From Pseudothermotoga hypogea DSM 11164 = NBRC 106472 (GTDB taxonomy: Bacteria > Thermotogota > Thermotogae > Thermotogales > DSM-5069), in assembly GCF_000816145.1 (NCBI RefSeq), contig NZ_CP007141.1, positions 1,116,001 to 1,180,000 on the forward strand: DNA of 64,000 nucleotides, read 5' to 3'. Shown here piece by piece: positions 21,801 to 59,759 of this stretch. Numbering within the stretch: the first letter of the stretch is position 1; each line of letters opens with the position of its first letter. The translations under genes and the position numbers were made by a program. Under the pieces are notes generated by a model. That model searched no databases. It was given only the letters and a program-made list of their open reading frames with translations, and was not told the origin of the DNA.

Positions 21801-23908
21801 AGATTCGATTGAACGTGTTCGCGGAATAGTTAGATAGCGAGATGTTTCCGTTTCCATTCCTCATAGATTCGATTGAACTATTCAAGCTGCTTCTTATATT
21901 CCTCTGTGTCAACTCGTTTCCATTCCTCATAGATTCGATTGAACGGAGGGGGAACATGAAAGTCTCTTTAGAAACGTTGGAGTTTCCATTCCTCATAGAT
22001 TCGATTGAACATGATCGCGAACACGTCCTGAAGCAAAGGAAAGTCCTGTTTCCATTCCTCATAGATTCGATTGAACCCCGCAGTTCCGTCGTCGGGAGTG
22101 ATCGTTAGGCCTTGTTTCCATTCCTCATAGATTCGATTGAACCGTATTTGGGTCTATTTCAAGGATCTGTGTAGCATTAGTTTCCATTCCTCATAGATTC
22201 GATTGAACTTTTAGCAAACTGTTCGAGCACGCGCGTTAGTCCGAGTTTCCATTCCTCATAGATTCGATTGAACATTTCAAGGATCTGTGTAGCATGAGAA
22301 GGAATGGCAGTTTCCATTCCTCATAGATTCGATTGAACGTCTCCCCCACCACGTTCCACGAACACGTCTAAATCGGTTTCCATTCCTCATAGATTCGATT
22401 GAACTGGACAACAGCTAAGGAACCCGTTCTCCAGCGCAGTGTTTCCATTCCTCATAGATTCGATTGAACGATCACCATAGAGAGTGGACTCGAGCTTTTC
22501 AACTGGTTTCCATTCCTCATAGATTCGATTGAACTTCCGTTGCTTGAAGATGTTTTCGCAATCATCTCAAGTTTCCATTCCTCATAGATTCGATTGAACT
22601 CTCGTAAAAATAGGCATCTTTACTGCACAGGAACAAGTTTCCATTCCTCATAGATTCGATTGAACTTTCAAAGCCCGCATCAAAGCGGGCTTTTCTTTTG
22701 TTGTTTCCATTCCTCATAGATTCGATTGAACATTTCAAGGATCTGTGTAGCATGAGAAGGAATGGCAGTTTCCATTCCTCATAGATTCGATTGAACCGTA
22801 TATTCCCAGCCGTAGACGGTACCGATTCTGGAAGTTTCCATTCCTCATAGATTCGATTGAACCGGAACTGCCAAGTGGGTTGGTGGAGTTTTAGCTCCGT
22901 TTCCATTCCTCATAGATTCGATTGAACCTTATCCGCGGCGGTGTAATCCACGTGTCCTCGCCCGGTTTCCATTCCTCATAGATTCGATTGAACCCTTCAC
23001 TTCCTGCCATGTTGCTTTGAGTTTATTTTGTTTCCATTCCTCATAGATTCGATTGAACTTGGGATCCGGAAGCGAAGTCTCCGGCAGGAGCAATGTTTCC
23101 ATTCCTCATAGATTCGATTGAACTAGTGCATAGTGCATACTTTCCACGGGATAACTATTGTTTCCATTCCTCATAGATTCGATTGAACGTGTTATTTGGC
23201 TGAACACGAACAACGTATCCGCGAGTTTCCATTCCTCATAGATTCGATTGAACCAAGCGTCGGCGAACTCATTAACACATACGTTGCTGGTTTCCATTCC
23301 TCATAGATTCGATTGAACTTAATCTGCTCGATATTTGCTTGTATTTTCTCGGGTGGTTTCCATTCCTCATAGATTCGATTGAACCGGGTTTAAGGAACTG
23401 TACAGGTGGCTGAACGGAAAGTTTCCATTCCTCATAGATTCGATTGAACTTAGAGAGGGGGAGAAAGTATGAGGAGTTTCAAGATGTTTCCATTCCTCAT
23501 AGATTCGATTGAACGGCATACAGCGGAGATACGGAACTGTGTAATATGCTTGTTTCCATTCCTCATAGATTCGATTGAACAACATTTTTGAATGCGAAGG
23601 AAATCTACACAAGAGAGTTTCCATTCCTCATAGATTCGATTGAACGAAACGAGCCGGTAGCGGTTGCGTACAAGAGAGAGCTGTTTCCATTCCTCATAGA
23701 TTCGATTGAACTCTTTTCGGCAATAAGAAGCGGAGTGGTTGATTTTTGTTTCCATTCCTCATAGATTCGATTGAACCGTTTAGATAGCCGATTAGCTCTG
23801 AACCTTTCTCCTTAGTTTCCATTCCTCATAGATTCGATTGAACTAAGAAAGTTGTAGACACAGCAACCGAGACGTGGATGTTTCCATTCCTCATAGATTC
23901 GATTGAAC
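18832..23908 (-). CRISPR. CRISPR array, 78 repeats and 77 spacers (type I-B)
   Basis: Direct repeats of 29 bp begin GTTTCCATTC and end CGATTGAAC on the plus strand. The complement ends in GGAAAC, the usual 3' handle end, so transcription is leftward. Spacers are 36-38 nt. Repeat starts run from 18832 and 18899 to 23815 and 23880 (hand count). All repeats look identical except the leftmost (18832-18861), which is 30 nt and ends GATCGAAAC; a degenerate end repeat marks the leader-distal, oldest end. The spacers at 22274-22309 and 22732-22767 are identical, and the one at 22143-22179 shares 22 nt with them. One spacer (22666-22702) contains a hairpin terminator. The adjacent cas operon is type I-B. 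Confidence 0.99.
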
Positions 23909-24342
23909 CCATAGATATTATATAATAACGGATCTTCATAATAAGGGGTACGCTGGGTTTGACTTAGCTCGAAGAACCATCATTTTTGCGATTTTGTCCA
24001 CGAGTCCTGATAAAACATCGCGTCGACTTTCAGTAGGAATCTCCTGAGTTTTTCCCTCTATCGAAGGTCCATTTGTCTCAAAACACTCTTGCAAGCCTTT
24101 CGTTAACATTTGTCCAGGATGATTGTGAAATTTCACAAATAAACGGATAACCACACCAAAAGATGAATACTATCATCTTACATCCCCAATTAACTTTGCT
24201 CTTTCACAAATGATTAATAATCTAACACTGCGTCTGTCAAGAGCTTCAGTAAAGAGCATTTACGATTAGGAATCGTAGGTTTTGCTATTCCAAGTTAAAG
24301 CACTATTAATTCAATATGACCACACACCTGAGAATCAATAAG
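23909..24342 (-). promoter_or_regulatory. CRISPR leader region
   Basis: AT-rich 434 bp between the newest repeat and cas3, positioned as the leader on the strand that is transcribed. Reading leftward, TATAAT (complement of 23920-23926) lies about 11 bp before the first repeat and could be the pre-crRNA -10 box; no convincing -35 is seen. A perfect 7-bp inverted repeat TACGATT-AGG-AATCGTA occurs at 24261-24277. A 72-codon open frame (23936-24154) overlaps it but has no recognisable features. Confidence 0.7.
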
Positions 24343-26580
24343 TCAGAACATGAGTACGGATGAACTTCTCTGGAATCCTGTTTGGTCGTTATACCAATGC
24401 GATAGATTGTCCCTTGTCACGACGACGAAACCGTTTTCAACTATCAGCGCCGATGTGAGTTCCTCTCGGCTCATTCGAACGTCTATGGTGTACAGAGCCA
24501 TCTTCTGAAGTATTCTCTTTATCGATGACAGTTTGTCGAATTTTCCAAGACCGTGATCTTTGTTCATTATCGAGTTGAGCTCTTCCCTGAGCTGAACTGC
24601 GAAGTCATCGTACTCGACATAGACTGGTACCGATTGGGCTCCATCTTCGATGAGATGAAAGTTGGAGATCTCTTCGAATTTTAGCGTTTTGAAACTATTG
24701 ATGAGATTTTTCTTGTCGGTGTTACCTCGATTATCAACTTTCTGAAAGTATTCTTGAACCAGATCAGAGAATTCTCTTTCCTCACAGACTTGCCGATTTG
24801 ACGTAACCTCCTTGGTGATACCCAATAGCATGGAATCGTACACATAGGAGGCCAGGCTTCTTTTGTTTTCGCTTTTTTTCACGACGTAGACATTAACTTC
24901 CCCCATTCGATTCTCGAAGTGTCTGTTACATCGTCCAGCTGCTTGTATGATGCTGTCAAGTGGAGCGTCGTCTCTGATCACCTTGTCAAAAGATATATCC
25001 ACACCAGCTTCGATAACCTGGGTGCTCACACAAATCAAAGGTCCCCGATCAATCTGCTTCATTCTCCTTAACCTCTCCAATCTCTGTTTCGGTATGACAT
25101 TCGATGATAAGTAGAACAATTGGTCGAATTTGAACCGTTTCAGGACGTACTCGAAGATCTCCCTCGAGTGCTTTATTGTATTTAGAATGATGAGCAGTTT
25201 CTGCCCGAGCCTCAAAGCTTCTTTCACATTTTCTTCTACAACATCAAAGAATTCTTCGTACCCCACCTCTCCATGAAAGTGTATTCTTGTACGATTGAGA
25301 TCAACACCGTAGTTTTCTTTCACTATGCTCGTGGCGTTCTTCAATAGAGCCGGTCGAGTCGCTGTAGACAGAATCACAACACTACCGAACTCCGTGAGCT
25401 CGGATAGTATTCGGGAGATTGGTTCCCAATATTTGTGAGGTATCGATTGAACTTCGTCCAGGATGATTACTGAGTTCAAAAGTTTGTAAAAGAAGGGAAT
25501 TCGTCTATTCGTGAACAACGATTCAAAGAGCGATACGAACGTCGTGATCACCATCTGTGTGTGCCAGCATTCTACTATTACACGTTGTATCGATGATTGT
25601 TCGTACTCTCTGCTTGAAAACAAAGGATCCGCCAGATGGTGGTAAGGTAAAAGTACAGTGGCATCGTGGTCAACACCGTCGAGTATCTTGTACATCAATT
25701 CCATTGTCTGGTCTATTATGTTTATGAAAGGCAGCGCGTAAACAATTAAGGTGTCTTTTTTCGCAAGAGAAAGGGCGACCTTTATATTTGCCAAGGTCTT
25801 ACCTAAACCTGTTGGGGCGGTTATTGAAAGAATTTTGCTATCGATTCTACTCAGCGATCGATCTATCTCCTCGTGGAATCTCTGACGCAATGAGTACATG
25901 GGATTATCCTTTGCTATATTCCTGATGTAACCTTGAACGAGATCCAACGTGATCTTTGGTTCTATTTCTACGATCATATCCTTGAGTGCGGCATCCTCTT
26001 TGTCGGAACTGACCAAAATGGAAATCAGTGTGTGCAACAGTATGTAGTCTTTCATCGTGAAATCTGTAAAGAAACTGAGTTTCGAAATCTGACTTTGAAC
26101 TTTTCTGCATATCGCCTTGACATCAAAATTCATCAAATTCGTGCCTGTTTCTTTCTCAAACCACTCAATAAGGCTTGGAGGAACGGAGCGAAATTGTTTC
26201 TCAAGCTCGCTCGGATTTTCTTCTACAAATCCGAAATTCGGGAGATGACCATGGTGGTATCTGACAGCGAAATAACCAAAGACCGCAAGTTTGGACTCAA
26301 ATCCATTACCCAGTAGAGTTTGATACGTCACTAAAGAGGAAAGGGGGGCATGCGTCGTATGCCCCCTGCCCGGATGCAGAATATAATTTTGAAATTCGTT
26401 CGATGCCTTCCCAAAGTCATGACATAGCGCACAAAGTTGAACCAATCGAACAGCGCTCTCTTTGTTGATTCCAAATGGTTCCCATCGAATCAATTCAGCT
26501 TTCTTAGTGGCTCTTTCAGCCGTACCAATGAGATGATCTAACAAGAGTCTATCTGGGTGAGACTTCAGTCTATCCAGCAT
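24343..26580 (-). CDS. cas3: CRISPR nuclease-helicase Cas3
   Basis: Recruited by Cascade to unwind and degrade target DNA. The 745-aa protein fuses an HD nuclease domain (CHDFGK at residues 53-58 and a THAPLSS segment) to a superfamily 2 helicase with Walker A APTGLGKT (255-262), a DEVQ box near 375, STATRP, and motif VI AAGRCNRH. It is the last cas gene before the leader, starting with a 16-bp overlap into cas5. All nuclease and helicase motifs look intact, so interference is probably functional. Confidence 0.96.
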   Translation of the reverse strand: MLDRLKSHPDRLLLDHLIGTAERATKKAELIRWEPFGINKESAVRLVQLCALCHDFGKASNEFQNYILHPGRGHTTHAPLSSLVTYQTLLGNGFESKLAVFGYFAVRYHHGHLPNFGFVEENPSELEKQFRSVPPSLIEWFEKETGTNLMNFDVKAICRKVQSQISKLSFFTDFTMKDYILLHTLISILVSSDKEDAALKDMIVEIEPKITLDLVQGYIRNIAKDNPMYSLRQRFHEEIDRSLSRIDSKILSITAPTGLGKTLANIKVALSLAKKDTLIVYALPFINIIDQTMELMYKILDGVDHDATVLLPYHHLADPLFSSREYEQSSIQRVIVECWHTQMVITTFVSLFESLFTNRRIPFFYKLLNSVIILDEVQSIPHKYWEPISRILSELTEFGSVVILSTATRPALLKNATSIVKENYGVDLNRTRIHFHGEVGYEEFFDVVEENVKEALRLGQKLLIILNTIKHSREIFEYVLKRFKFDQLFYLSSNVIPKQRLERLRRMKQIDRGPLICVSTQVIEAGVDISFDKVIRDDAPLDSIIQAAGRCNRHFENRMGEVNVYVVKKSENKRSLASYVYDSMLLGITKEVTSNRQVCEEREFSDLVQEYFQKVDNRGNTDKKNLINSFKTLKFEEISNFHLIEDGAQSVPVYVEYDDFAVQLREELNSIMNKDHGLGKFDKLSSIKRILQKMALYTIDVRMSREELTSALIVENGFVVVTRDNLSHWYNDQTGFQRSSSVLMF

Positions 26581-27263
26581 ATGTTTTCGCCCAGCTCCTT
26601 TATCCTGTAGACTTGCTCAACGTAATGTACCAGCTTTATGGGTGTTGCGTTCTTCTCGACCCAGTAAGAGGCAAAAGCCGTGGGTGTTCGTTCATTGTCC
26701 ATGTTCAACGTCATTCGTTCCTTGATGAACAATTGTCCCTTTTGTGGAAATATTTTTGTGCCATCCAAGACCTTTATCACAGTGTGCACTTCCAACGGGG
26801 TGGATACAGGCTCAGCGTCGAAAGAACCCACGTAGCTGAAGTTCGCTATCATTTGTGCTTGACCAAGGTAGGGTGTGAAAACGCTGATCTTGTTCTTCAG
26901 GCAGTATTGGAGCTCTTCGTATTTACCGAACTCCGAAACATATATTCTGTAAGCTGGGTTTTTGATCAACTCCAAGACTATCTGAATTCTCGCGTGTTTC
27001 TGGCCACTCTTTGTTTCAACGTAATTCGTCGCTATGTTGATCTTCTTGATCGGATTCAACAGCTTTACAGCAAAGTGCGCATCATCGAAAGTCCTCAGAT
27101 GTTCACTGCTCTCGGTAGTATCGTTTTGTATGCCAAGTATGGCTCCCAGAAGACCGCATATCGCAGTTCTGGGGGGGAAGGAATACGAAGTCGAGCTGGT
27201 CGTTGTGTAGCTTCTTCTGAAGAGAGCGTATTTTCCGAAAACGTCAAAAACTAAAACTTTCAT
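26565..27263 (-). CDS. cas5: Cascade subunit Cas5 (type I-B)
   Basis: RAMP-fold protein that binds the 5' handle of crRNA and caps the Cas7 filament. The N-terminus MKVLVFDVFGKYALFRRSY and the SFPPRTAICGLLGAILG motif are typical of Cas5 of the Cas5h/Tneap type. Length 232 aa. ATG 27263 overlaps the cas7 stop (ATGA). Processing of pre-crRNA is left to the separate Cas6 in this operon. Confidence 0.95.
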   Translation of the reverse strand: MKVLVFDVFGKYALFRRSYTTTSSTSYSFPPRTAICGLLGAILGIQNDTTESSEHLRTFDDAHFAVKLLNPIKKINIATNYVETKSGQKHARIQIVLELIKNPAYRIYVSEFGKYEELQYCLKNKISVFTPYLGQAQMIANFSYVGSFDAEPVSTPLEVHTVIKVLDGTKIFPQKGQLFIKERMTLNMDNERTPTAFASYWVEKNATPIKLVHYVEQVYRIKELGENICWID

Positions 27264-28144
27264 GGCAAATTCACTACCTCAATGTTCATCCTTTCGAGTA
27301 CCTCGTTGATTTTTACTGGTGCATTGTTCTTCAACACTGTGAGTCGGTCGCTCTGTTTCAGTTCGACCCTTTTTATTAGGTCCTTGCTTTGATCAAGTTT
27401 TTCTAAGAGTTTGTCAATTTTCAATTGAATTTCCGAGATATCTCTGATGCTCTTTTCATCGACGCTGCTTTGAATCTCCAAGTAAGAGTCAAGTTCACCG
27501 ATATGGTATTTCACATTTTCTTTGTAAACCACTCTCATCAGAAGGCGTGGGTTGTGTTCCATTTTTGAACGTGTGATGAGATTCTTTGTCCCGTCCCAAA
27601 TGGCCTTGAGGAGTTTTTGAAGGTCTTCCTCGGTCGCGTTTGTGATTTTTGCTGCGGTTTCGTTCGCAACACCGTAGAAAGCTATAAGTGCGTAGGGTAT
27701 CAGATACTCTTCTCTGAAACTTCTCTGTTGTGCCTGATCCTGGCTCGTGAACGCTGCCGTGCCCTGTTGGAATACCACCTTGACTGCGTGAAGTGATGTA
27801 CCTGGCCTGAACTGCACTGGACCAGTGTAGGACGTGTCGGCCTGTTTCGATATCGGAATCACTGCGCCAAACAATCTGACGTCCAGACATTTCAACGCGT
27901 CCTCTTTCTTTTCGATCTTAAGCTCTTCACGACGCTTATCAGGGCTCACCGCCTCACCAGATACCCAAATTGTCTCTCCCCATGACAACCATTCGTCCCT
28001 TATTGTTCTTTTGAGTCTGACATCAGTTACGATGCATCTTTCCGTTTCTTCGTCAATCCGTGGTTTGTTCTCGTCGAGTGGGTCTCCGTTTGGATTCGCC
28101 CATTTCACATCGTACAAGAAGAGAATTTCAGACCTATTGTTCAT
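27260..28144 (-). CDS. cas7: Cascade backbone subunit Cas7 (Csh2)
   Basis: Forms the helical backbone that holds the crRNA spacer. The 294-aa protein begins MNNRSEILFLYDVKWANPNG, and the PNGDP element with DENKPRIDEETERCIVTDVR is the hallmark of the Csh2/Cst2-type Cas7 family. ATG 28144 is the start, with GAGGTGGAG upstream; a longer open frame would begin inside cas8b. The gene overlaps the cas8b stop by 11 bp and cas5 by 4 bp. Confidence 0.95.
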   Translation of the reverse strand: MNNRSEILFLYDVKWANPNGDPLDENKPRIDEETERCIVTDVRLKRTIRDEWLSWGETIWVSGEAVSPDKRREELKIEKKEDALKCLDVRLFGAVIPISKQADTSYTGPVQFRPGTSLHAVKVVFQQGTAAFTSQDQAQQRSFREEYLIPYALIAFYGVANETAAKITNATEEDLQKLLKAIWDGTKNLITRSKMEHNPRLLMRVVYKENVKYHIGELDSYLEIQSSVDEKSIRDISEIQLKIDKLLEKLDQSKDLIKRVELKQSDRLTVLKNNAPVKINEVLERMNIEVVNLP

Positions 28145-28541
28145 TCTGCTCCACCTCCTCGACTTCGATCTTGAAAGGTTCCTTGTTCGAGTAAGCCAAC
28201 CCAAGGGTGAAAACGAAGTTCAGTTCATCGATCGTGATGTTTTTTTCTCCAGCCGACAAGTAGTACTCCGCCGCAACCTTCATGATAAGATCAGTCCTTT
28301 GCCCGTAACTTTTGTACTGCTCAAGCTTGTTTCGGATTTCTGGCAGAAGACCTTGAACATCCCGCATGTTCATCTTCAGTCCCTTAAGTTTGTTGAAGAA
28401 CGGTGCTGCTTGTCTTTTCGCGTACTGAACCGCTAAGACTTTCCCTGCGAGCACCCCTGTCAAGAAAACTGCCTTTTTCCAAGGTTCATTGAAAAATTCC
28501 GGGTACCTTTGGAAGAACTCGCTCACTTCGCTACTAACCAC
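28134..28541 (-). CDS. cas11b: Internal in-frame small subunit Cas11b within cas8b
   Basis: Inside cas8b, AAAGGAGGGT (complement of 28548-28557) is followed after 8 nt by GTG at 28541-28539, in frame at codon 446. Translation from there gives a 135-aa helical protein (starting VVSSEVSEFFQRYPEF) that ends with the cas8b stop. Independent translation of a small subunit from within cas8 is established for several type I systems, including I-B. Here the ribosome site is as strong as those of the true genes around it. The product itself is inferred. Confidence 0.75.
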   Translation of the reverse strand: MVSSEVSEFFQRYPEFFNEPWKKAVFLTGVLAGKVLAVQYAKRQAAPFFNKLKGLKMNMRDVQGLLPEIRNKLEQYKSYGQRTDLIMKVAAEYYLSAGEKNITIDELNFVFTLGLAYSNKEPFKIEVEEVEQNEQ

Positions 28542-29876
28542 TGATTCACCCTCCTTTCTCAGATGGAAAACCTCTATTTGGCTTAGAAACAAAACAGCTG
28601 CAAAGCTCAGATAAGTCAGCGTACGCCAGTGAAAATTCCTTGTCTGCTTTGAATCTATTTCTTGTACAGCCTTTCTGATTTTTCGCATACAGTACCACAG
28701 GAATCTTTGCAGGTTGTAACTCTCACCGTGAAAGATCGATCTAATTAACTGAAGGTAATCTTTTCTCGCTTCACTCTTTGATGTTGGTTTCTCGTACAAG
28801 TCCCACAACAAGCCGAGAGTCGGTTCAGGCACATTTTCAACAGCAATCCTCTTCGCAGCTTCTTTTCTTTCGGTGACCAGTTTTCTAAGTCTTGTGGGAG
28901 AGACCTCTGTCAGATGCAACTCTATTCTCTGCTGGTTCTTGTTTATTTCCATGAAGAGAAAGTCATAATGAACGAATGGATCTTCGTCGGCAAGAGCTTC
29001 TTCGATTTCTTCCTCATTCCTGGCGAAGTCTTTCAATGTCTTGGAGTTTTCCTTCACTCTTTCTATCACGCGACTCAGAATCGAGTCGTTTTTGTGCATC
29101 AATGAAGGTATCAACCAGATGGTCCTCCCAAGAAAGTTGAACGTGAGGTCTCTGGTCACGATGTTTGCCCCGTTCTGCAGATCTGTTTTACATTCCTCGC
29201 AGATCGGCAGGACTTTTACAGCCCCCTCGATCTTCAAGCTTGGGGAGAATCCTGGTTTATCGAACGTTGCGAATTTGAAGACTTCGTTGACAGTCGCGGA
29301 AACAAGTCTGGATTTGCCACAAAAATGGCACGTACCTTGAACCCCTGTGCTCGTTGCCTTCTCGAGCGCCCTTTTTATGAAGACCTCCTTGAAGGGTTCG
29401 TATTCGGCAGGCATCATTTCCTGACCATTTTTTATCAAGATTATGGTCAAGTAAGTGCCTTTTTCTTCCATAGTCATGAGTTGTTTTTCTAAGTCTTCGA
29501 CTATCTGCAAATGATTCTTTTCAAAAAGCTTGACAAAATCTCTCAAGACCTCCTCGTCCTCGAAGAACCTTCTGAACTTTCGCAAGGCTTTCTCAATGGC
29601 TTCTTTTATTTTTTCCAGACTCTTGCCGCTCACGGTCAAGTTCACTGTAGGTGATTTCCCTGACACTTGTCCCAGCTGGTCGGTGTAAAGCAACAGATGT
29701 GCTTGGTCTGGTCCTGGTGTCTCGAGCGCCACAACACCTTTGTACTCTAACGGTTCTAAGCTGACGAGTAAAGCCAATCCCTTGTCCTGCTTCACTGCCT
29801 TTGTAAAGTTTCGATAATACTCTGACTGCCTCATCAAACGTCCAATCTCAATAACCTTTGTCAACACATGTTTCAC
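28134..29876 (-). CDS. cas8b: Cascade large subunit Cas8b (Csh1)
   Basis: Large subunit that recognises the PAM and recruits Cas3. The 580-aa protein is of the TM1802/Csh1 type with a zinc-finger pair CHFCGK (Cys183, Cys186) and CEEC (Cys226, Cys229). The C-terminal 135 residues are helical, like the Cas11 small subunit, and an internal start precedes them. It lies 6 nt after cas2 and overlaps cas7. Confidence 0.93.
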   Translation of the reverse strand: MKHVLTKVIEIGRLMRQSEYYRNFTKAVKQDKGLALLVSLEPLEYKGVVALETPGPDQAHLLLYTDQLGQVSGKSPTVNLTVSGKSLEKIKEAIEKALRKFRRFFEDEEVLRDFVKLFEKNHLQIVEDLEKQLMTMEEKGTYLTIILIKNGQEMMPAEYEPFKEVFIKRALEKATSTGVQGTCHFCGKSRLVSATVNEVFKFATFDKPGFSPSLKIEGAVKVLPICEECKTDLQNGANIVTRDLTFNFLGRTIWLIPSLMHKNDSILSRVIERVKENSKTLKDFARNEEEIEEALADEDPFVHYDFLFMEINKNQQRIELHLTEVSPTRLRKLVTERKEAAKRIAVENVPEPTLGLLWDLYEKPTSKSEARKDYLQLIRSIFHGESYNLQRFLWYCMRKIRKAVQEIDSKQTRNFHWRTLTYLSFAAVLFLSQIEVFHLRKEGESVVSSEVSEFFQRYPEFFNEPWKKAVFLTGVLAGKVLAVQYAKRQAAPFFNKLKGLKMNMRDVQGLLPEIRNKLEQYKSYGQRTDLIMKVAAEYYLSAGEKNITIDELNFVFTLGLAYSNKEPFKIEVEEVEQNEQ

Positions 29877-29882
29877 CCCCTA

Positions 29883-30146
29883 TCAGTACATGAAGCTGGT
29901 TGAGCCCTTTTCTTGACCAAGTACTTCGACTGTGACCAGAGTCTTGTCACTAATGATGTAGAATCTGACAGAATCTCTCGATCTTTCAATGTTTTCCTGA
30001 AGCTCTAATTTCAGTTTCTCGAATTTAGCTTGTGTTATCTCTCCTTCAAAAACGGAGTTTTGAACCCAGTTCAGATATTTTCTACATACTTTTAAGATCT
30101 TTCCGACGCGTTCCTGCTCGATGTCGTACGTGACTATCACGTACAT
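29883..30146 (-). CDS. cas2: CRISPR adaptation protein Cas2
   Basis: Small ferredoxin-fold protein that bridges two Cas1 dimers in the spacer-integration complex. The 87-aa product starts MYVIVTYDIEQERVGKILK with the conserved Asp in YDI, and ends in the usual beta strands (RFYIISDKTLVTVEVLG). ATG 30146 with GGGGAT upstream is preferred over a start nine codons earlier. It sits between cas1 and cas8b; 73 bp without a gene separate it from cas1. Confidence 0.96.
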   Translation of the reverse strand: MYVIVTYDIEQERVGKILKVCRKYLNWVQNSVFEGEITQAKFEKLKLELQENIERSRDSVRFYIISDKTLVTVEVLGQEKGSTSFMY

Positions 30147-30219
30147 GGTTATCCCCAATAGTTGTGTCCACACTTAACTGACGGATCAATCTTAGGATTT
30201 TCGACACCCAACTCTCTGC

Positions 30220-31203
30220 TCACCCGAGATATGGCTCGTATTCCTCATCTTCCAAGATGTGTTTTTCGATTTTGTAGGCTTCCATCCTGATCAGTGAACG
30301 ATAAGAAACCTGTCTCTTCAGCTTTGCATGGTGGATGGTGTCTTGAAGTCTTTCTTCAAACGTCTGAACCAAGAGTTTTTTCGCACTCTCTTTCATGGAT
30401 ATGCCGCCGGCTATTTGATGGAAATCTGTTGGTTTGATCTGCTTTCTGTTGACGAGTGTGAGTATCATTCTGTCCACGAGAACAGGTTTGAAGATCTCAG
30501 CTATGTCGAGATTCAAGGTGAATCTTCTGTTGTTGGTACTGTGCAAATAGCCGATCCTTGGGTCCAAGTGAGTCCTGTATATCTGTGACAAGACCGTGGT
30601 GTAGAGTAAGCTGTTCGCGAAGCTCATGAGTGCATTCAGCTCGTTCTCTGGTGGTCTCTTGGTTCGAGAGCCAAATTGAAAATGCTCTGATTTTATCATT
30701 CGGTCAAAACAACTGTAGTAGATCTCGCGTGCGTTACCTTCGAGAGCCATCAACTGATTCACTTCTGAGCACAGAATCAGATTTTCAACGTGATTTCTTA
30801 TACTTTGAATTCTTTCAGCAAACTGATCGTCATCGTTGTACTTCTTCAAGGTGTTGATGATGTTACACAGTGCGCCTTTGACGAACATCCTTGCGAGCAA
30901 AAGTCGCTTCTCGCTGTTAAGGTAGTGTTCGGCCTGTTTGAGTATCACAAGGCCTGAGTTGAGAAATTCCCTTGGATAATAGCTTCCAACGTAGTAGCCG
31001 AAATGATTGAAAAAGTGAACTATTATCTGTTTCTCGGTCAAAAACTCCAGCAGTCTTTTGTTCAAATCGACTTCGGAAAAGATGTTAATCTCTGAAACGT
31101 TTTCTACTGGTATATGTCTTTTTCCATCCTTGGTTTCAAGTAAGATGGTGTTTTCCTTGCGCTTCAGAATACCATCTGAAAAAATGTATATCGGTTCTGC
31201 CAT
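30220..31203 (-). CDS. cas1: CRISPR integrase Cas1
   Basis: Metal-dependent integrase that inserts new spacers next to the leader. The 327-aa protein has the catalytic Glu in LEGNAREIYY (about 155-164), the His in GYLHSTNNRRFTLNLDIAEI (about 220) and the Asp/Glu in that same stretch, as in the Cas1b subtype of type I-B. It follows cas4 by 9 nt and precedes cas2. Confidence 0.97.
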   Translation of the reverse strand: MAEPIYIFSDGILKRKENTILLETKDGKRHIPVENVSEINIFSEVDLNKRLLEFLTEKQIIVHFFNHFGYYVGSYYPREFLNSGLVILKQAEHYLNSEKRLLLARMFVKGALCNIINTLKKYNDDDQFAERIQSIRNHVENLILCSEVNQLMALEGNAREIYYSCFDRMIKSEHFQFGSRTKRPPENELNALMSFANSLLYTTVLSQIYRTHLDPRIGYLHSTNNRRFTLNLDIAEIFKPVLVDRMILTLVNRKQIKPTDFHQIAGGISMKESAKKLLVQTFEERLQDTIHHAKLKRQVSYRSLIRMEAYKIEKHILEDEEYEPYLG

Positions 31204-31212
31204 AGGATCACC

Positions 31213-31713
31213 TCAAGACCAGCAGAATTCTTGATAACCGCACTTGGAACAAAAGGATGACCGTCTCCGCTGAGGGGGTTTCGGTAAAGAAATTATCTCT
31301 TCTGCCTTCTTGATAGCTTCATTCAGTTCCGTTGACGATTGCTCATCAAGTACGACTGTTATTTGCTTTTTCTCCTTGGGGATGAGTATCTTCCCGACAG
31401 CCTGGACCCCTCTCTTTTTAATTTCCGACAGATAGTAGAGCAGCTGGACTCGAGCACCCTTAAGGAACTTTGAGGATTTTTTGATCTCACCGACCACAAC
31501 CATTTCCCCTTGCTCATAGATCATGTCGATCTTGATGCCCGGCAGGGATATTTCTCTGATTCGATTGTTCTTGTAACTCTCTGTGTGTATCAGTCTTCCT
31601 ATTTCTATGAAAGGGTTGTACTGGTCTGGTTCTATCTGGTGAGCTATCAACCACGCTTCTCTCTCACACACAGTTGAACTCAGCAAAACTGTGCCCGTGA
31701 TCGTGTGGTTCAC
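31213..31713 (-). CDS. cas4: CRISPR adaptation exonuclease Cas4
   Basis: RecB-like nuclease with an Fe-S cluster that trims prespacers and fixes PAM-side orientation. The 166-aa protein has an N-terminal Cys (TVCEREAW, residue 16), nuclease residues in GIKIDMIYE and VVVGEIKKSSK, QLLYYL, and the three C-terminal cysteines in SFCSKCGYQEFC. GTG 31713 overlaps the cas6 stop (GTGA). The Cas4-Cas1-Cas2 order is typical of I-B. Confidence 0.95.
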   Translation of the reverse strand: MNHTITGTVLLSSTVCEREAWLIAHQIEPDQYNPFIEIGRLIHTESYKNNRIREISLPGIKIDMIYEQGEMVVVGEIKKSSKFLKGARVQLLYYLSEIKKRGVQAVGKILIPKEKKQITVVLDEQSSTELNEAIKKAEEIISLPKPPQRRRSSFCSKCGYQEFCWS

Positions 31714-32492
31714 CCCCGATTGATTTCAAAAATTTTCTTGAGCGGTACTTCAGAAACCATAGGTGCTACCATTCCGAATCCAAGGCTGTTTCTTTCGCCG
31801 AACCCTACTTCGTAACCAAGCTTTATCAATCTACTATCACCCCTCACCTTGAATGGAAAGACTGCGCCCTTTATCTTTATGCCTCGTATATCTATGAGCT
31901 TTGTGATCCTGTTACGTCTTTTTATGTAATCCCAGTCAGGTTCTATCGTGATCGAAGCATCGATCGCTTCTCCGTAAAAGGCCTCATATTTCTTGATCAA
32001 ATTCTTATTGAGCACTTGTTCAAACTGCTCATCGCTTGGCAAAAGGTATTTGTGATACAATTTGCCGTTTCGTTCAATGGGAACACTCACCACGAGCGGG
32101 GAGAGCATGAAGAATTCTGCGTACCCTTCGAAGCTTGGCTCCTGCAAAAGATTGATCTGTTCGATCGGAAAAACTGTGCCCTCAATTTCTATCTGTGGAA
32201 CTTGTATGAGAGACGAGAAGAAGTTCGTGATGAACTCCTCACTCACCGACGATATGTACCATCTCCCCATCGCAGGCCATATCAAGAGTGAATCAAATCT
32301 CACGGCCGACCTTTCAAAAAACAGTTGTGAGAACGTGAAAAGCTTGAATCCTTTATATCCCTTCTCGTGTAAGAAAGATTCGAAATCACGATCAACATGC
32401 ATCAACCTTTTGTAGACAAAGGAACAAAGCTGGTAATGATAGTTTATGGGAATGGAACAGGTGTAAGTCCTGAACACGATTTCTAACCTCAC
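31710..32492 (-). CDS. cas6: CRISPR pre-crRNA endoribonuclease Cas6
   Basis: Cleaves the repeat to release crRNAs with an 8-nt 5' handle. The 260-aa RAMP protein has the C-terminal glycine-rich loop GYEVGFGERNSLGFGMV and an N-terminal VRLEIVFRTYTCSIPINYHY region in which a His could be catalytic. GTG 32492 with GGGGGG 6 nt upstream is preferred over a TTG six codons earlier. It is the first gene of the operon. Confidence 0.92.
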   Translation of the reverse strand: MRLEIVFRTYTCSIPINYHYQLCSFVYKRLMHVDRDFESFLHEKGYKGFKLFTFSQLFFERSAVRFDSLLIWPAMGRWYISSVSEEFITNFFSSLIQVPQIEIEGTVFPIEQINLLQEPSFEGYAEFFMLSPLVVSVPIERNGKLYHKYLLPSDEQFEQVLNKNLIKKYEAFYGEAIDASITIEPDWDYIKRRNRITKLIDIRGIKIKGAVFPFKVRGDSRLIKLGYEVGFGERNSLGFGMVAPMVSEVPLKKIFEINRG

Positions 32493-32850
32493 GTCAGGCC
32501 CCCCATTCAAAACTTTACAGGATACATTCAGACATAAATTTCACCTGAACTATTTCCTTCGTTATAATAACATACGAGGCTTATCATGAGTCGCGGTTGA
32601 GTGTGATCGTAGTGAACGCACCAGATCAAGGTCATGACTGATCGTTTCGTTCATAAACTTACCCGTGAACGTGTAAAAATGGGTTGAACATGCTTAAAGG
32701 GTTGGTAATCTGAGCAAATGATACAATTAGAAAACGGTTTGGAGTGTTGTTGCTTTTCTTTGCTAAAGTGTGATGGTCAGCCCAAGACTGCGTTTTGTTT
32801 TTGTCGGACGTTCTTCACGAACATTTGAAACGAGTGAAGGAGTGTTGCGT
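32493..32850. promoter_or_regulatory. Divergent intergenic region, cas operon and GGDEF gene
   Basis: 358 bp without a gene between leftward cas6 and the rightward GGDEF gene. Rightward, TTTCAC (32539-32544), 18 bp, TATAAT (32563-32568) could be a promoter with a long leader; a TACAAT at 32722-32727 is another possible -10. Leftward, the same AT-rich block at 32561-32570 reads TTATTATAAC and may serve the cas operon. No clear operator or structured RNA is seen. Confidence 0.4.
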
Positions 32851-33909
32851 GTGTCAAAGTTTGAAACCTGCGTGGAGATACTCCAGTACTTAGGTGAGAT
32901 CGCTTCGAAACTTCTGAGTGGGCAAACCGAAAATGTCTATCAAGATGTCTTGGAAAAGGCCATGAAGATCGTGCCTGGAGCTCAGGCTGGATCGATTCTT
33001 GTGAGAGAGAATGATCGATTCGTGTACGTCGCGGCGGTGGGGTATGAACTTGAGGAGCTTCAGAAAGTGAGCTTCACCGTCGAAGAGGAGGAAGAATGGG
33101 TTGGTAGGGATAGAAGCTACGCAATAGTCTTAAGGGAAGACATAGAGAGATTCGATGAAGCCTTACTCAAATCTGATAAACGTGTAGGTATTTTGGCAAA
33201 TTTCGGTGGAATAAAAAAGATCAAAGCAACATTGATCATACCTGTGAGAATCAAAAACGAGCTCGCGTTGGTGCTGAACCTTGACAACTTTGAAAGGAGC
33301 GATGCTTTCAACGAGGATTCGATCGTCCTGGCCAAGGTCTTGGCTAACGTGCTCGGAATCATCTTCAACAGGCTCGAGCTCGAAAATCAACTCAGAGTGA
33401 AGAACCAGTTGTTAGAGTACATGTCGTACCACGATACTCTCACCAATCTTCCAAACAGAAGGTTGCTTGAGGAGTTCGCCGAAAAGATGCTCAAGCTGGC
33501 TAAGAGAGAGAACAAACCTTTGAGCATCCTTTTCATGGACCTTGACAAGTTCAAACCGATCAACGATACGTATGGGCACCAGGTGGGAGACGAAGTTATG
33601 AAATTGGTTGCGGCCAGACTCGAAAGGTTCACGAGATCCAACGATATGGTCTCACGGTTCGGTGGAGATGAATTCGTGATCTCAGCGTACGATTGTTCGA
33701 AGCAAGATGCAAAAGCATTTGCCGAGAGGCTCATCAAAGCGATGGAAGAACCGATGAAAATCGATCAATTAACGCTTCAACTGAGCGCTTCTGTAGGTAT
33801 CGCGACGTTTCCGGAAGATGGCGATGAACTGACCAAGTTGATTCGTGTTGCAGACGAAAGGCTCTACATGGCGAAGAAGAGTGGATCGAAGATCGTCACA
33901 CAAGGCTAA
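32851..33909 (+). CDS. GAF-GGDEF diguanylate cyclase
   Basis: Probable c-di-GMP synthase, 352 aa. An N-terminal GAF-like sensory domain (about residues 10-170) leads through a short helix to a GGDEF domain with the intact active-site motif FGGDEF and, five residues earlier, RSND, a product-inhibition I-site of the R-x-x-D type. No transmembrane segment is seen, so the enzyme is cytoplasmic. GTG 32851 has AAGGAG at 8 nt; the open frame extends 27 codons further but without a ribosome site. The gene ends 1 bp from the convergent flippase gene. Confidence 0.87.
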   Translation: MSKFETCVEILQYLGEIASKLLSGQTENVYQDVLEKAMKIVPGAQAGSILVRENDRFVYVAAVGYELEELQKVSFTVEEEEEWVGRDRSYAIVLREDIERFDEALLKSDKRVGILANFGGIKKIKATLIIPVRIKNELALVLNLDNFERSDAFNEDSIVLAKVLANVLGIIFNRLELENQLRVKNQLLEYMSYHDTLTNLPNRRLLEEFAEKMLKLAKRENKPLSILFMDLDKFKPINDTYGHQVGDEVMKLVAARLERFTRSNDMVSRFGGDEFVISAYDCSKQDAKAFAERLIKAMEEPMKIDQLTLQLSASVGIATFPEDGDELTKLIRVADERLYMAKKSGSKIVTQG

Positions 33910-55744: not shown

Positions 55745-55821
55745 GATTCCACCTCCTGATTTTTCATCTCACTTTCAATATTTTACGGCAAGTGGTAAAA
55801 TTTGTTGTGGGAGGAAAACAC

Positions 55822-56625
55822 ATGAGGATCAACGAGGTCAGTGGTATGTGGGCGATACGTCAGTTGCAGCTGCTCTCAGGCCAGCAATCTGGCTTGATCG
55901 GTCAGCTTTCGCGTGCCACGATACCTTTCAATCAGGACGTTTCCTCCTCTGCGATCGCCGAAAGGTTGAAGGCGCAGATCAGCGGTTATCAAAGAGCCAT
56001 GTACGAATCGCACAACGCTATAGGAATGCTTTCCACTGCCGAGGCGGGCCTGGGATCGATCCATTCTGCTCTGAACAGGCTCAGGGAGCTCGCCGTTCAG
56101 GCCTCGAACTCCACGCTCAGCGATTCTGAAAGGTCTGCACTACAAGAAGAATACTCCCAACTGTTGCAACAGATCAACGCGACGTCCCAGAACGTCAGTT
56201 ACAACAACATCAGAGTTCTCGCAGGAGAAGTCACGAACTTCAGCGTTCAAACTGGACCGAACGAAGGTCAGAGGATGACTATCACGCTCCCCGCCGTAGA
56301 CAGCGAAAGGTTGGGCCTTTCCAATACGAACGTCACTAACATCGAGAACGCTCAACGAGCACTCGAAGCGATCGATCGGGCAACCGAAAGCGTTTCGAGA
56401 ACGCGCTCTTATATTGGAGCGACCACGAACAGATTGCTTTCTGCAATCAACGAGATGAGTGGTACGATGATCAATTTGACTTCGAGCGTGAGCAGACTCA
56501 CCGACACAGATTTTGCCAGAAGCACGATGGAACTCTTCAGAACCCAGCTTTTACAGCAATCTTCTTTGATCAACCTGATCCACTCGAACGTGTCACGTCA
56601 GAGTGTTCTGAGACTGCTTCGGTGA
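55822..56625 (+). CDS. Minimal flagellin
   Basis: Flagellar filament subunit, 267 aa. The N-terminal D0/D1 helices include IGMLSTAEAGLGSIHSALNR and LRELAVQASNSTLSDSER, and the C-terminal helices end TDTDFARSTMELF, SVLRLLR. The D2/D3 outer domains are absent. The N-terminus differs from canonical flagellins (MRINEVSGMWAIRQLQ), so this could be a minor or variant flagellin. ATG 55822 has GGGAGG upstream. No other flagellar gene is nearby. Confidence 0.88.
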   Translation: MRINEVSGMWAIRQLQLLSGQQSGLIGQLSRATIPFNQDVSSSAIAERLKAQISGYQRAMYESHNAIGMLSTAEAGLGSIHSALNRLRELAVQASNSTLSDSERSALQEEYSQLLQQINATSQNVSYNNIRVLAGEVTNFSVQTGPNEGQRMTITLPAVDSERLGLSNTNVTNIENAQRALEAIDRATESVSRTRSYIGATTNRLLSAINEMSGTMINLTSSVSRLTDTDFARSTMELFRTQLLQQSSLINLIHSNVSRQSVLRLLR

Positions 56626-56794: not shown

Positions 56795-57199
56795 TCAAAT
56801 GGAACCGCTCCGATACTCCGTTCTGAACTTGATGATCGTCGTTGACTGGAAAGTTGCCCCCGTCGGCTCGATCACACAACCTGCAGGAAGCGTGAGAAGA
56901 TAGACCGTGTTTGGCTTCAATCTCTCGAGAGGCCTTATCTCAAGCTGAGTTTCATAACTGATGAGCTTTTGTATCTGCACAGTTTGTCCAGCCTCCGTCT
57001 TCAGCACGATCTGCTCCCAGTTCGGTCCCTGCGAGATCTTCTTGTTGAACCTGACGTACAGGAAAGAATTCAGAGCAACGTTCTCTTCTGAATCTCTCGG
57101 TGAAGTCCAAAAGATCTCTGGAGGACTCGCGACAGAACCTGTGGTGAAAGAGAGGACGTAAACCTGTTGCATCGGATTGCCTTGCAGATCGACAAGACC
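56795..57199 (-). pseudogene. Severed C-terminal part of an Ig-like domain protein
   Basis: The frame from GLVDLQGNPMQQVYVLSFTTG to FRTEYRSGSI encodes the end of one Big_5 (bacterial Ig-like) domain and one complete further domain (PPEIFWTSPRDSEENVALNS onward). It continues the gene at 57426-59759, separated by a structured insertion. About 20 residues that should link the two halves are missing. An ATG at 57263-57261 inside the insertion could in principle start it, but no signal peptide would be present. Confidence 0.7.
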
Positions 57200-57470
57200 T
57201 TGGCACTCCCAATCCCCTGAAGGGGATAGGATTCTTAGCAGCTCTTTAGGCTGCCTTCCATGGAGCATTTGATACTCCATGGCCACAGAGGTGTGGTTTA
57301 AACCTTACACCTCTGGCGGGTGCCAATCCCGCTACTACTTGGGACTTCTTCCCAAGATACCTATGCCAAATGGCATAGTTCCCGTGTTACAATGATAACA
57401 CAAGTGCTAATAAAAATCAAGCCCCTTACCCATTCGCCTGAAGAAGAAGGGCTTGCGGGGCAGTATTTTC
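57200..57470 (-). mobile_element. Hairpin-rich insertion resembling an IS200/IS605 tnpB 3' end with omega-RNA
   Basis: About 270 bp with consecutive perfect stems (plus-strand arms): CCCCTGAAGGGG, CCATGGAG/CTCCATGG (8 bp), CAGAGGTGT/ACACCTCTG (9 bp), GCGGG/CCCGC, CTTGGGA/TCCCAAG and TATGCCA/TGGCATA. Read leftward it starts with a coding-like tail (TENTAPQALLLQANG, stop TAA at 57428-57426), then hairpins, and finishes with AATCC-hairpin-GGGAG. This layout resembles the end of a tnpB gene, its reRNA/omega-RNA and the right end of an IS605-type element. No transposase and no left end is seen, so it is probably a remnant. A HEARO-type RNA is an alternative. Boundaries are approximate. Confidence 0.5.
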
Positions 57471-59759
57471 TGTCAGGGTGTCGAACTCGACTCTCGAATC
57501 GAAGCTCACAGGATTGTTGTTCACCTTCACACTCATCTGTGAGAAGTTGGTTCCTTTCTTCATCCCCTCTGAAAAGATTATCCAGACAACTTGATCGCGG
57601 TACACGTTTGTCGCACCGTTGGGTGGAAAACTTTTGACGATCTGTGGAGGAACTGCGGACGTGAAAGAGAAGCTGTGCGCGAGGTTCGGGGCGTCGGTTT
57701 GCGAATCGAGGACCGCGTGTTGCGGTACCGTTACGCTGTAATCCTTGTTGATCTCAAGGTTTTGACGTGGTCTTATTACCAACGAGGCACCACTGATGCT
57801 TTTATCTATCGCAACGATTTGGTTGGAAGACTTCAACTGTACGTTGTTGAAAGCCGGACCCGGTTTGATATTTCTGTCGAACCGAATCACTATGGATTTG
57901 CTCGTTGGCACATCCCGTTGTTTGTCCGCTGGATCGGTTGAAACAACCTTCACGAAGGATGCAGTTTTGAAATTCAGTGAGAAGGCTAAGTTCGGATTTC
58001 CGCTGGAATCCTTCAACGCACCGCTTTGAATTTCCAGAACGTACGGTTGATCGACCGCCAGTGGGGAACTGAAGGATACGGTGAGTTCGTTGTTGCTCAA
58101 GCTGACGTTCGCACCTTTACTGGCGTCGGTCACGTACTCACCGGTAGACTTTTTCAAAACGATGGCATCCCTTCGAACCAACGTGCAGGTTTTGTTGAAA
58201 ACAAACTTGATCGATGGTTTGATGGGCACGTTGCTTTCGCCGTTTCTGATCGAAGTATTCACGACGATGAGTGGTGAACCGGTCGTGAAAGTGAGACGAA
58301 ATTCGTTCAGGTTTCCAACATTTGAACTGTCTCTGAAGGCGTTCTGCTGAACGATCAACTCGTAGAGTGTGTTACCTTCCAGTGAGTTTCTCGGTGAGAG
58401 AGTGACTGTAGAGCCTTGGATGCTCACATTTGTGGGGACACTCTGATTCGTTCCAACCTTCCGTAACAAGATCTTTGAACCATCGTAGCCAGACACGTTC
58501 GAACTCAAAGACAGTTTTATCTGTGGCTGTAAACTCACTTCAGTGGAGCCATCTTTCAAAGAAGAATCGAGAACTTCTGGGGACCTTGGACCTCTGTAGT
58601 GTAAGAGCGCGGGCCCTATCTTCAGTCCACGGTTTCCATTGAGGTCCCCTTCGACTGTACCATCGGTGTAAAAGCTCAAGACGCTGTGGGCGAGACCGGC
58701 CGCGGCTACGGTTGCCTTCAGCCTCAACCACAGATGAACCCGGTCAGTGTAGGGAAGCTGGAGGTTCTCGAAGATGAGCGTTGAAGCTTTGGCAATTTTT
58801 TCATCGATTTCGAACAGCGTCGCGACCAACTTCATCGATTCGAGCGCGAATTTCAAATATCCAGCCTGGCTCATCTCGACCACATCGATGATGATATCCG
58901 TAATACCACTCGCATAGTTTTGGAGCAAATCTTGAATGTAACCTTCGGTGCTGTGACTAACAGATTTGAACAATAGTTGAACCTTAGATTTTGAAAGGAC
59001 TTGGTTAATGGAGAATCCTTGTCCCAATCCAGCCGCTATCGCAACGCTGTAACCACCTTGACCGGTCCAACCCTCGCCGACCACGTTGATGGTACCGGCG
59101 TACGCAACGTCGAAGTAGACGTCAGGATTGCTCGAAAATCCCGCCGGAACGCTGGGCTTGGAAAAGCTTCTGAATATCACGTAGTCGATGGATGCCTTTT
59201 GTGGAGCACCCCAACCCCAGATGGTTCCAAGGCCCGCCGCGTGCATCCAAACTTTGCCAGTCGAAAAAGCGTCGTAAGCACTATAGGAAACTTTACCTTC
59301 ATAGTGGAGTGGCTGAAACGCGTCGTTGACGGTGCAGTTGAAAGCTCTTGCGTGAGATAGTTTCGTGATCAATCTCGGGTTGCTGTTGGGCTTGGAAAGG
59401 CGGACCTCGATGAACCTCAGGGATGTTCTGTGAGGAAGTATCAAATAGGCGGTGTGCCAACCTGTTAAGTTGTCGATGTTGTCGTTCTCACGACCACAGC
59501 GAAAGGCTGCCACGGGTCTGTCCGAACCATCGTAGCAGATGAATGTGACCCTGTCGTTTGCCACAGAGCCTGGGGAAGAAACACCGTACCAGCGCAGTTC
59601 AACGGCTTCGAAGAAATTCTGCTCCAAGGTGAGCCTGTAGCGAGATTCATCCTTGCTTTCCATGAGCACTTGCCAGTTGTTGAAGGTGAGCTCAGCAGCG
59701 CAGAGAAAGGATAACAGACACGAAATCATCAGCCACAGGAGTTGAATCCTGATCTTCAC
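57426..59759 (-). CDS. Secreted Big_5 (Ig-like) repeat protein, truncated
   Basis: Signal peptide (MKIRIQLLWLMISCLLSFLC), about 390 residues of unidentified beta-rich sequence, then three Big_5/SbsA-type Ig-like domains with the N-P-x-x-G-x-x-x-V pattern (SLKDGSTEVSLQPQ, TDPADKQRDVPTSKS, PPNGATNVYRDQ) and part of one more. The last domain breaks after SRVEFDTL and is replaced by about 16 residues (TENTAPQALLLQANG) from the insertion. It may still be exported, but its normal C-terminus lies in the severed piece. Probably a cell-surface protein; function unknown. Confidence 0.8.
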   Translation of the reverse strand: MKIRIQLLWLMISCLLSFLCAAELTFNNWQVLMESKDESRYRLTLEQNFFEAVELRWYGVSSPGSVANDRVTFICYDGSDRPVAAFRCGRENDNIDNLTGWHTAYLILPHRTSLRFIEVRLSKPNSNPRLITKLSHARAFNCTVNDAFQPLHYEGKVSYSAYDAFSTGKVWMHAAGLGTIWGWGAPQKASIDYVIFRSFSKPSVPAGFSSNPDVYFDVAYAGTINVVGEGWTGQGGYSVAIAAGLGQGFSINQVLSKSKVQLLFKSVSHSTEGYIQDLLQNYASGITDIIIDVVEMSQAGYLKFALESMKLVATLFEIDEKIAKASTLIFENLQLPYTDRVHLWLRLKATVAAAGLAHSVLSFYTDGTVEGDLNGNRGLKIGPALLHYRGPRSPEVLDSSLKDGSTEVSLQPQIKLSLSSNVSGYDGSKILLRKVGTNQSVPTNVSIQGSTVTLSPRNSLEGNTLYELIVQQNAFRDSSNVGNLNEFRLTFTTGSPLIVVNTSIRNGESNVPIKPSIKFVFNKTCTLVRRDAIVLKKSTGEYVTDASKGANVSLSNNELTVSFSSPLAVDQPYVLEIQSGALKDSSGNPNLAFSLNFKTASFVKVVSTDPADKQRDVPTSKSIVIRFDRNIKPGPAFNNVQLKSSNQIVAIDKSISGASLVIRPRQNLEINKDYSVTVPQHAVLDSQTDAPNLAHSFSFTSAVPPQIVKSFPPNGATNVYRDQVVWIIFSEGMKKGTNFSQMSVKVNNNPVSFDSRVEFDTLTENTAPQALLLQANG

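Follow-up and report, generated by a model that had tools for sequence, protein, structure and literature searches.

Palindrome-associated transposable elements (PATEs) were defined in Haloquadratum walsbyi, in a report whose sections on these elements describe some of them as fused ends of IS605-type transposons (PMC3119063). Similarly, a PATE-like sequence of approximately 271 nt, composed of the hairpin portion of the left end (28 nt), the last 58 nt of tnpB and the whole 160-nt right end, is presented in the part of another report that deals with Halanaerobium hydrogeniformans (PMC7290912). PATEs are already known, and the element described here, which interrupts a surface-protein gene of Pseudothermotoga hypogea DSM 11164, is a further PATE and, as a gene disruption, ordinary. 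It lies in a stretch of 64,000 nucleotides (contig NZ_CP007141.1, positions 1,116,001 to 1,180,000), here called the window, in which all positions are numbered from the first letter unless stated otherwise.

Results

An interrupted gene for a secreted surface protein

The original prediction, made from the sequence letters, proposed that a gene for an Ig-like surface protein is split by the structured remnant of an insertion sequence of the IS200/IS605 family. The split was confirmed: the gene, which encodes a secreted protein with Big_5 domains, lies on the minus strand, starts at 59759, breaks off at 57475 and picks up again at 57199, beyond an insert of 276 bp (57200-57475, minus strand; 272 bp plus the target TGAC). 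The list of open reading frames (ORFs) gives a frame of 777 codons (57426-59759, minus strand) and one of 163 codons (56795-57286, minus strand), and Pfam recognises four Big_5 stretches in the first half and one in the second, versus five in the uninterrupted homologue, which was found, as had been suggested, in a relative of the same genus (G004), where the ortholog constitutes a single frame of 918 codons. At the protein level, matches to the Big_5 protein were detected in two of 101 genomes, namely its own (G000) and that of this relative, and an additional contig search confirmed no further orthologs. Nothing is inserted at the corresponding site of the relative, nor does its genome contain any match to the element. 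The insert is indeed strongly structured, the region 57190-57480 folding at -126.5 kcal/mol versus -89.4 +/- 5.1 kcal/mol for 200 shuffled sequences (z -7.25), none of which reached so low a value, and its assignment to the IS200/IS605 family was borne out by strong similarity to IS605 copies of its own genome. The features of the locus are collected in Table 1.

By eye, the neighbour of the split gene (window 55792-56625) is flagellin-like and lies on the other strand. Elsewhere in the window, positions 19001-33000 have a G+C content of 41-46% versus approximately 50% around them, and perhaps represent acquired DNA.

Table 1. Features of the interrupted gene and of the inserted element (window positions).
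Feature	Position	Strand	Basis
5' part of secreted Big_5 protein gene, host	57476..59759	-	ORF; Pfam Big_5 x4; 52% identity to G004 protein, residues 2-762
3' part of Big_5 protein gene, host	56795..57199	-	Pfam Big_5; alignment to G004 protein
Miniature IS605 element (PATE), 272 bp	57200..57471	-	four copies in own genome; ends of full-length IS
TGAC, putative host target tetranucleotide left of element	57472..57475	-	at left of 13/13 tabulated copies; encodes host residues in two rejoined empty sites
Left end (LE) including TGAC	57388..57475	-	window LE 85-88% identical to LE of nine longer copies
Left subterminal hairpin, putative TnpA recognition structure	57418..57455	-	sequence and alignment
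LE read in host-gene frame: tail TENTAPQALLLQANG and stop	57426..57475	-	ORF; translation comparison
Last 45 tnpB codons and stop codon	57246..57383	-	tblastn, TnpB residues 396-440, 89% identity, E 4e-27
Right end (RE)	57200..57372	-	94-97% identical to RE of nine longer own-genome copies; mostly 73-90% in other genomes
Putative omegaRNA scaffold, multibranched, closed by TTGGCA/TGCCAA	57200..57330	-	fold z -7.09; covariation
Right subterminal hairpin	57208..57232	-	sequence, fold, covariation (helix 6)
Host bases directly 3' of element, would-be omegaRNA guide	57180..57199	-	position only

The insert is a miniature derivative of a resident IS605

Judged on its sequence, the insert is a PATE, a miniature IS200/IS605 derivative of the resident IS605, in which an intact LE is fused to the 173-nt RE of a 1736-bp element, including the last 45 codons of tnpB. 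Subterminal palindromes are present, whereas the ends (AGAAAA... and ...TCAA) do not form inverted repeats. TGAC occurs on the left only, none of 13 right flanks beginning with it, so that a target-site duplication is lacking. The 276 bp are too short for a transposase, and the last 45 codons are the sole relation to TnpB that was found, while the ends are akin to those of an IS605-type transposon whose proteins belong to Y1_Tnp and OrfB_IS605. Additionally, the element is present in multiple copies of more than 90% identity, the four copies being 93-100% identical to that of the window. In the left hairpin a C-G pair of the window copy and of M2 is replaced by T-A in M3 and M4, with pairing maintained.

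The tail ending in QANG, with which the first half of the host protein terminates, had been taken for the end of a TnpB. This proved mistaken, as the tail TENTAPQALLLQANG comes from translation of the LE in the host frame; the TnpB of the resident family ends in VSNAPWKAA, and those residues are encoded deeper in the insert, in the same frame as the tail and beyond three stop codons. The case illustrates that the end of an insertion sequence can be mistaken for the tail of a protein.

Copies in the same genome

A search of the genome with the 276 bp and short flanks returned 28 matches. Four copies, including that of the window, cover the element fully (273-276 bp including TGAC) within unrelated flanks; the other three, of 273, 275 and 276 bp, lie in unrelated places, and the miniature form is therefore older than the insertion studied here. 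Most of the remaining matches are the ends of longer copies, and one is an isolated RE piece of 47 bp. Nine longer copies resemble the miniature at both ends, in the LE (its bases 1-88) and in the RE (its bases 104-276). Copies F5, F7 and F10 (1736-1737 bp including TGAC) carry both tnpA and tnpB, complete or nearly so, the open tnpA frame comprising 109 codons in F7 versus 135 in F5 and F10, and the proteins of F5 score as Y1_Tnp (3.4e-40), OrfB_IS605 and Cas12f1-like_TNB. Copies F9, F12, F13 and F14 lack tnpA, F6 and F11 have other internal deletions, and F8 has no LE in the stretch examined.

These copies bear on the history that had originally been proposed, in which a full IS605 inserted and a single deletion in place then took away the left end together with most of tnpB and approximately 60 bp of the host gene. 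Host bases have indeed been lost and only the last 45 codons of tnpB remain, and to that extent the proposal stands; however, the left end is present (element bases 1-85 are 85% identical to the left end of F5), and the identical internal structure recurs in the three miniatures elsewhere, so that it was not within this gene that tnpA and most of tnpB were deleted. Decay of a full element in place was rejected on the latter ground, and we regard it as very improbable. The favoured reading is that the element arrived as a miniature.

Comparison of the insert with right ends of the resident IS605, another of the suggested checks, gave 94-97% identity to the nine longer copies for the window's RE, and 95-98% to the full-length copies for the RE of the miniatures, versus 81-88% between the LEs of the four miniatures and those of the nine longer copies. 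Given this lower LE identity, the direct parent of the miniature may belong to another subfamily. The mismatch is not claimed as proof of a chimera, since the LE is less conserved than the RE between species too. All 15 LE-bearing copies recovered in this genome, miniature or not, keep at least approximately 146 nt of the RE.

By eye, M3 (L003:1501-1779) sits within an apparent WD-repeat gene, which it interrupts at a P-D-G motif. Two further miniatures, forming a second and diverged pair, are present at genome positions 647077-647303 and 1709231-1709473 (L047, L048); their RE is 75-77% identical to that of the window copy, and the right-end RNA region is kept.

Target site and recombination between copies

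In the 13 tabulated copies AGAAAATA is preceded by TGAC, and 12 of them end in TCAA, the window copy alone ending in CCAA; these counts are biased, the strings having served as anchors for finding the ends. The reassorted flanks of some copies support the ends independently. The left flank of F7 and the right flank of F10 together form one uninterrupted frame that matches a whole gene of another genome (G003), and the left flank of F6 and the right flank of F7 form a radical-SAM gene (Pfam score 29.1, just below the cut-off of 29.5) that is whole in G001 (L086). At both rejoined sites the frame is exactly kept, TGAC encodes a host residue and every host base is retained; the two checkable sites thus show clean insertion that neither duplicates nor deletes host sequence. 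As each of these flank pairs restores a gene, recombination takes place between the copies, and a segment of approximately 72 kb bounded by them seems to have been moved in this way. The left flank of F10 with the right flank of F6 forms no evident gene. The reassorted copies F6, F7 and F10 are located at G000:C1:704977-706714, 778902-780532 and 1747823-1749561.

Host bases lost beside the insert

The loss in the window is an exception to this clean pattern. In the alignment, the protein of the relative has 22 residues between EFDT and GLVD (IFLTPTSILPANTLVTVFIPKN), and the loss amounts to 18 codons and one base (55 bp) if CTGAC of the window is matched to CTGACA of the relative, to 51 bp if the terminal CCAA is also counted as host, and to approximately 61 bp if the CTGAC/CTGACA match is not made. 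The prediction that some 20 residues are missing is consequently well matched by an estimate of about 18-22 residues (51-61 bp), which is based on a single ortholog of 52% identity. The window flanks, when joined without the insert, are out of frame, and the loss is therefore no simple in-frame indel.

The right terminus of the window copy may itself have been trimmed or mutated, given its CCAA. The loss could have come about if two copies had inserted a short distance apart in the gene and then recombined, so that one copy disappeared along with the intervening 51-61 bp. Copies of this genome do recombine, as the reassorted flanks indicate, and neither end of the window copy falls short by more than four bases; a second TGAC just before GGTCTT, however, is unprovable in the ancestor, and the relative has GAAC there. 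We hold this course to be a serious candidate, with a little less than an even chance. A plain deletion starting four bases inside the right end, by which the last four bases (TCAA) were trimmed and CCAA is host sequence, explains the unique terminus equally, and the data do not decide between the two.

An IStron is an IS605 element that contains a group I intron. Were the insert a self-splicing element of this kind, an intact mRNA would still be obtained from the gene, and the insert's sense orientation and strong structure would be in keeping with this. However, the Rfam models of group I introns give no match even with the threshold relaxed to E<=10, and taking out the insert neither restores the frame nor makes good the approximately 20 missing residues, so that self-splicing merits hardly any credence. 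Indeed, no Rfam family matches the insert at gathering scores, and matches at E<=10 are at chance level. Insertion of a PATE with accompanying loss of host bases remains the preferred explanation.

The right end as a putative omegaRNA scaffold

The last 131 nt of the element fold at -68.5 kcal/mol versus -40.6 +/- 3.9 kcal/mol in shuffled sequences (z -7.09). When the structure derived from the window was placed on 30 RE sequences of this and other genomes, namely those reaching near both ends, 93.7% of cells were paired versus 36-44% when the structure was slid along. Of 56 pairs, 15 had changed on both sides versus a mean of 6.0 in shuffled alignments, none of 500 being as high, a result that is supportive rather than proof as the rows are related and the structure was taken from the first row; the number of further pair types was unremarkable (76 of 500 shuffles as high). 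Most of the folded stretch also encodes the C-terminus of TnpB in the longer copies. Four rows end in GGTC instead of TCAA (L059, L060, L061 and L065), and have a corresponding A-to-C substitution in the opposite strand of the closing stem, the closing pair thereby changing from A-U to C-G. The TCAA to CCAA change of the window copy converts a G-U of the closing stem to G-C; CCAA may also lower cleavage by the transposase. These folds and substitutions make it probable that the right end kept by the miniature is a scaffold for a TnpB guide RNA (omegaRNA), with its end at the border of the element.

Host bases following an omegaRNA scaffold serve as its guide. A genome search with TGAC and the 20 would-be guide bases gave no other site within three mismatches.

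Related elements in other genomes

DNA matches to the element were found in 21 of 101 genomes, its own included, most of these matches being REs of related IS605 elements with 73-90% identity. A genome of another family (G011) contains a miniature of 292 bp (L070:170-461; G011:C34:9269-9560) that also keeps the right-end RNA region; its internal junction is different and it holds another piece of tnpB, and it therefore arose separately. In G003 the LE/RE pair that was found is shorter and does not start with TGAC.

Discussion

The history that we consider highly probable is that a PATE inserted beside TGAC in the Big_5 surface-protein gene, in the sense direction. Lacking a transposase of its own, it would have depended for its movement on Y1 transposase (TnpA) supplied in trans by full-length resident IS605 copies. 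Approximately 51-61 bp of the host gene are missing beside it, most likely through recombination of two nearby copies or a plain deletion at the right-hand border, during or after insertion, and the right end that was brought in is probably an omegaRNA scaffold.

On the model of its right end, the PATE could act in trans as the source of a guide for TnpB. Taken further, it might be a guide-only selfish element, whose omegaRNA, with approximately 20 host bases from its right side, arms the TnpB of the full-length copies to cut empty alleles, such that the gene-less element is retained and copied back; we put this forward tentatively, as the less probable outcome. If true, selection on the guide RNA, and not just on the transposase hairpins, would set the minimum size of a PATE. 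The locus lends itself well to testing the view that the TnpB guide RNA is purposely kept by miniature IS605 elements. A search of the open-access literature, a scope that gives it little weight, found no paper on miniature IS605 elements with a TnpB guide RNA.

Relative to the full-length IS605 copies F5, F7 and F10 of its own genome, the miniature has the ends and the TGAC/TCAA junctions in common and differs by the absence of tnpA and most of tnpB. It resembles the PATEs of H. walsbyi, as portrayed in the sections devoted to them, in lacking terminal inverted repeats, in its near-terminal palindromes, in the absence of target duplication, in a length that accommodates no transposase and in being multi-copy; those PATEs are archaeal, however, and the same sections are silent on tnpB 3' ends and on guide RNA (PMC3119063). 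The layout given in the corresponding part of the Halanaerobium report is nearly that of the window element, although that sequence is single-copy, whereas here there are four copies with a longer LE and 45 tnpB codons (PMC7290912). Finally, TnpB omegaRNA systems such as that of ISDra2 are the subject of other reports (PMC8612924, PMC10278001). In these systems a structured RNA runs over the 3' end of tnpB to the right end and is followed by host bases, and likewise the folded stretch here reaches the element border; unlike in those systems, the putative scaffold is carried here without a tnpB of its own.
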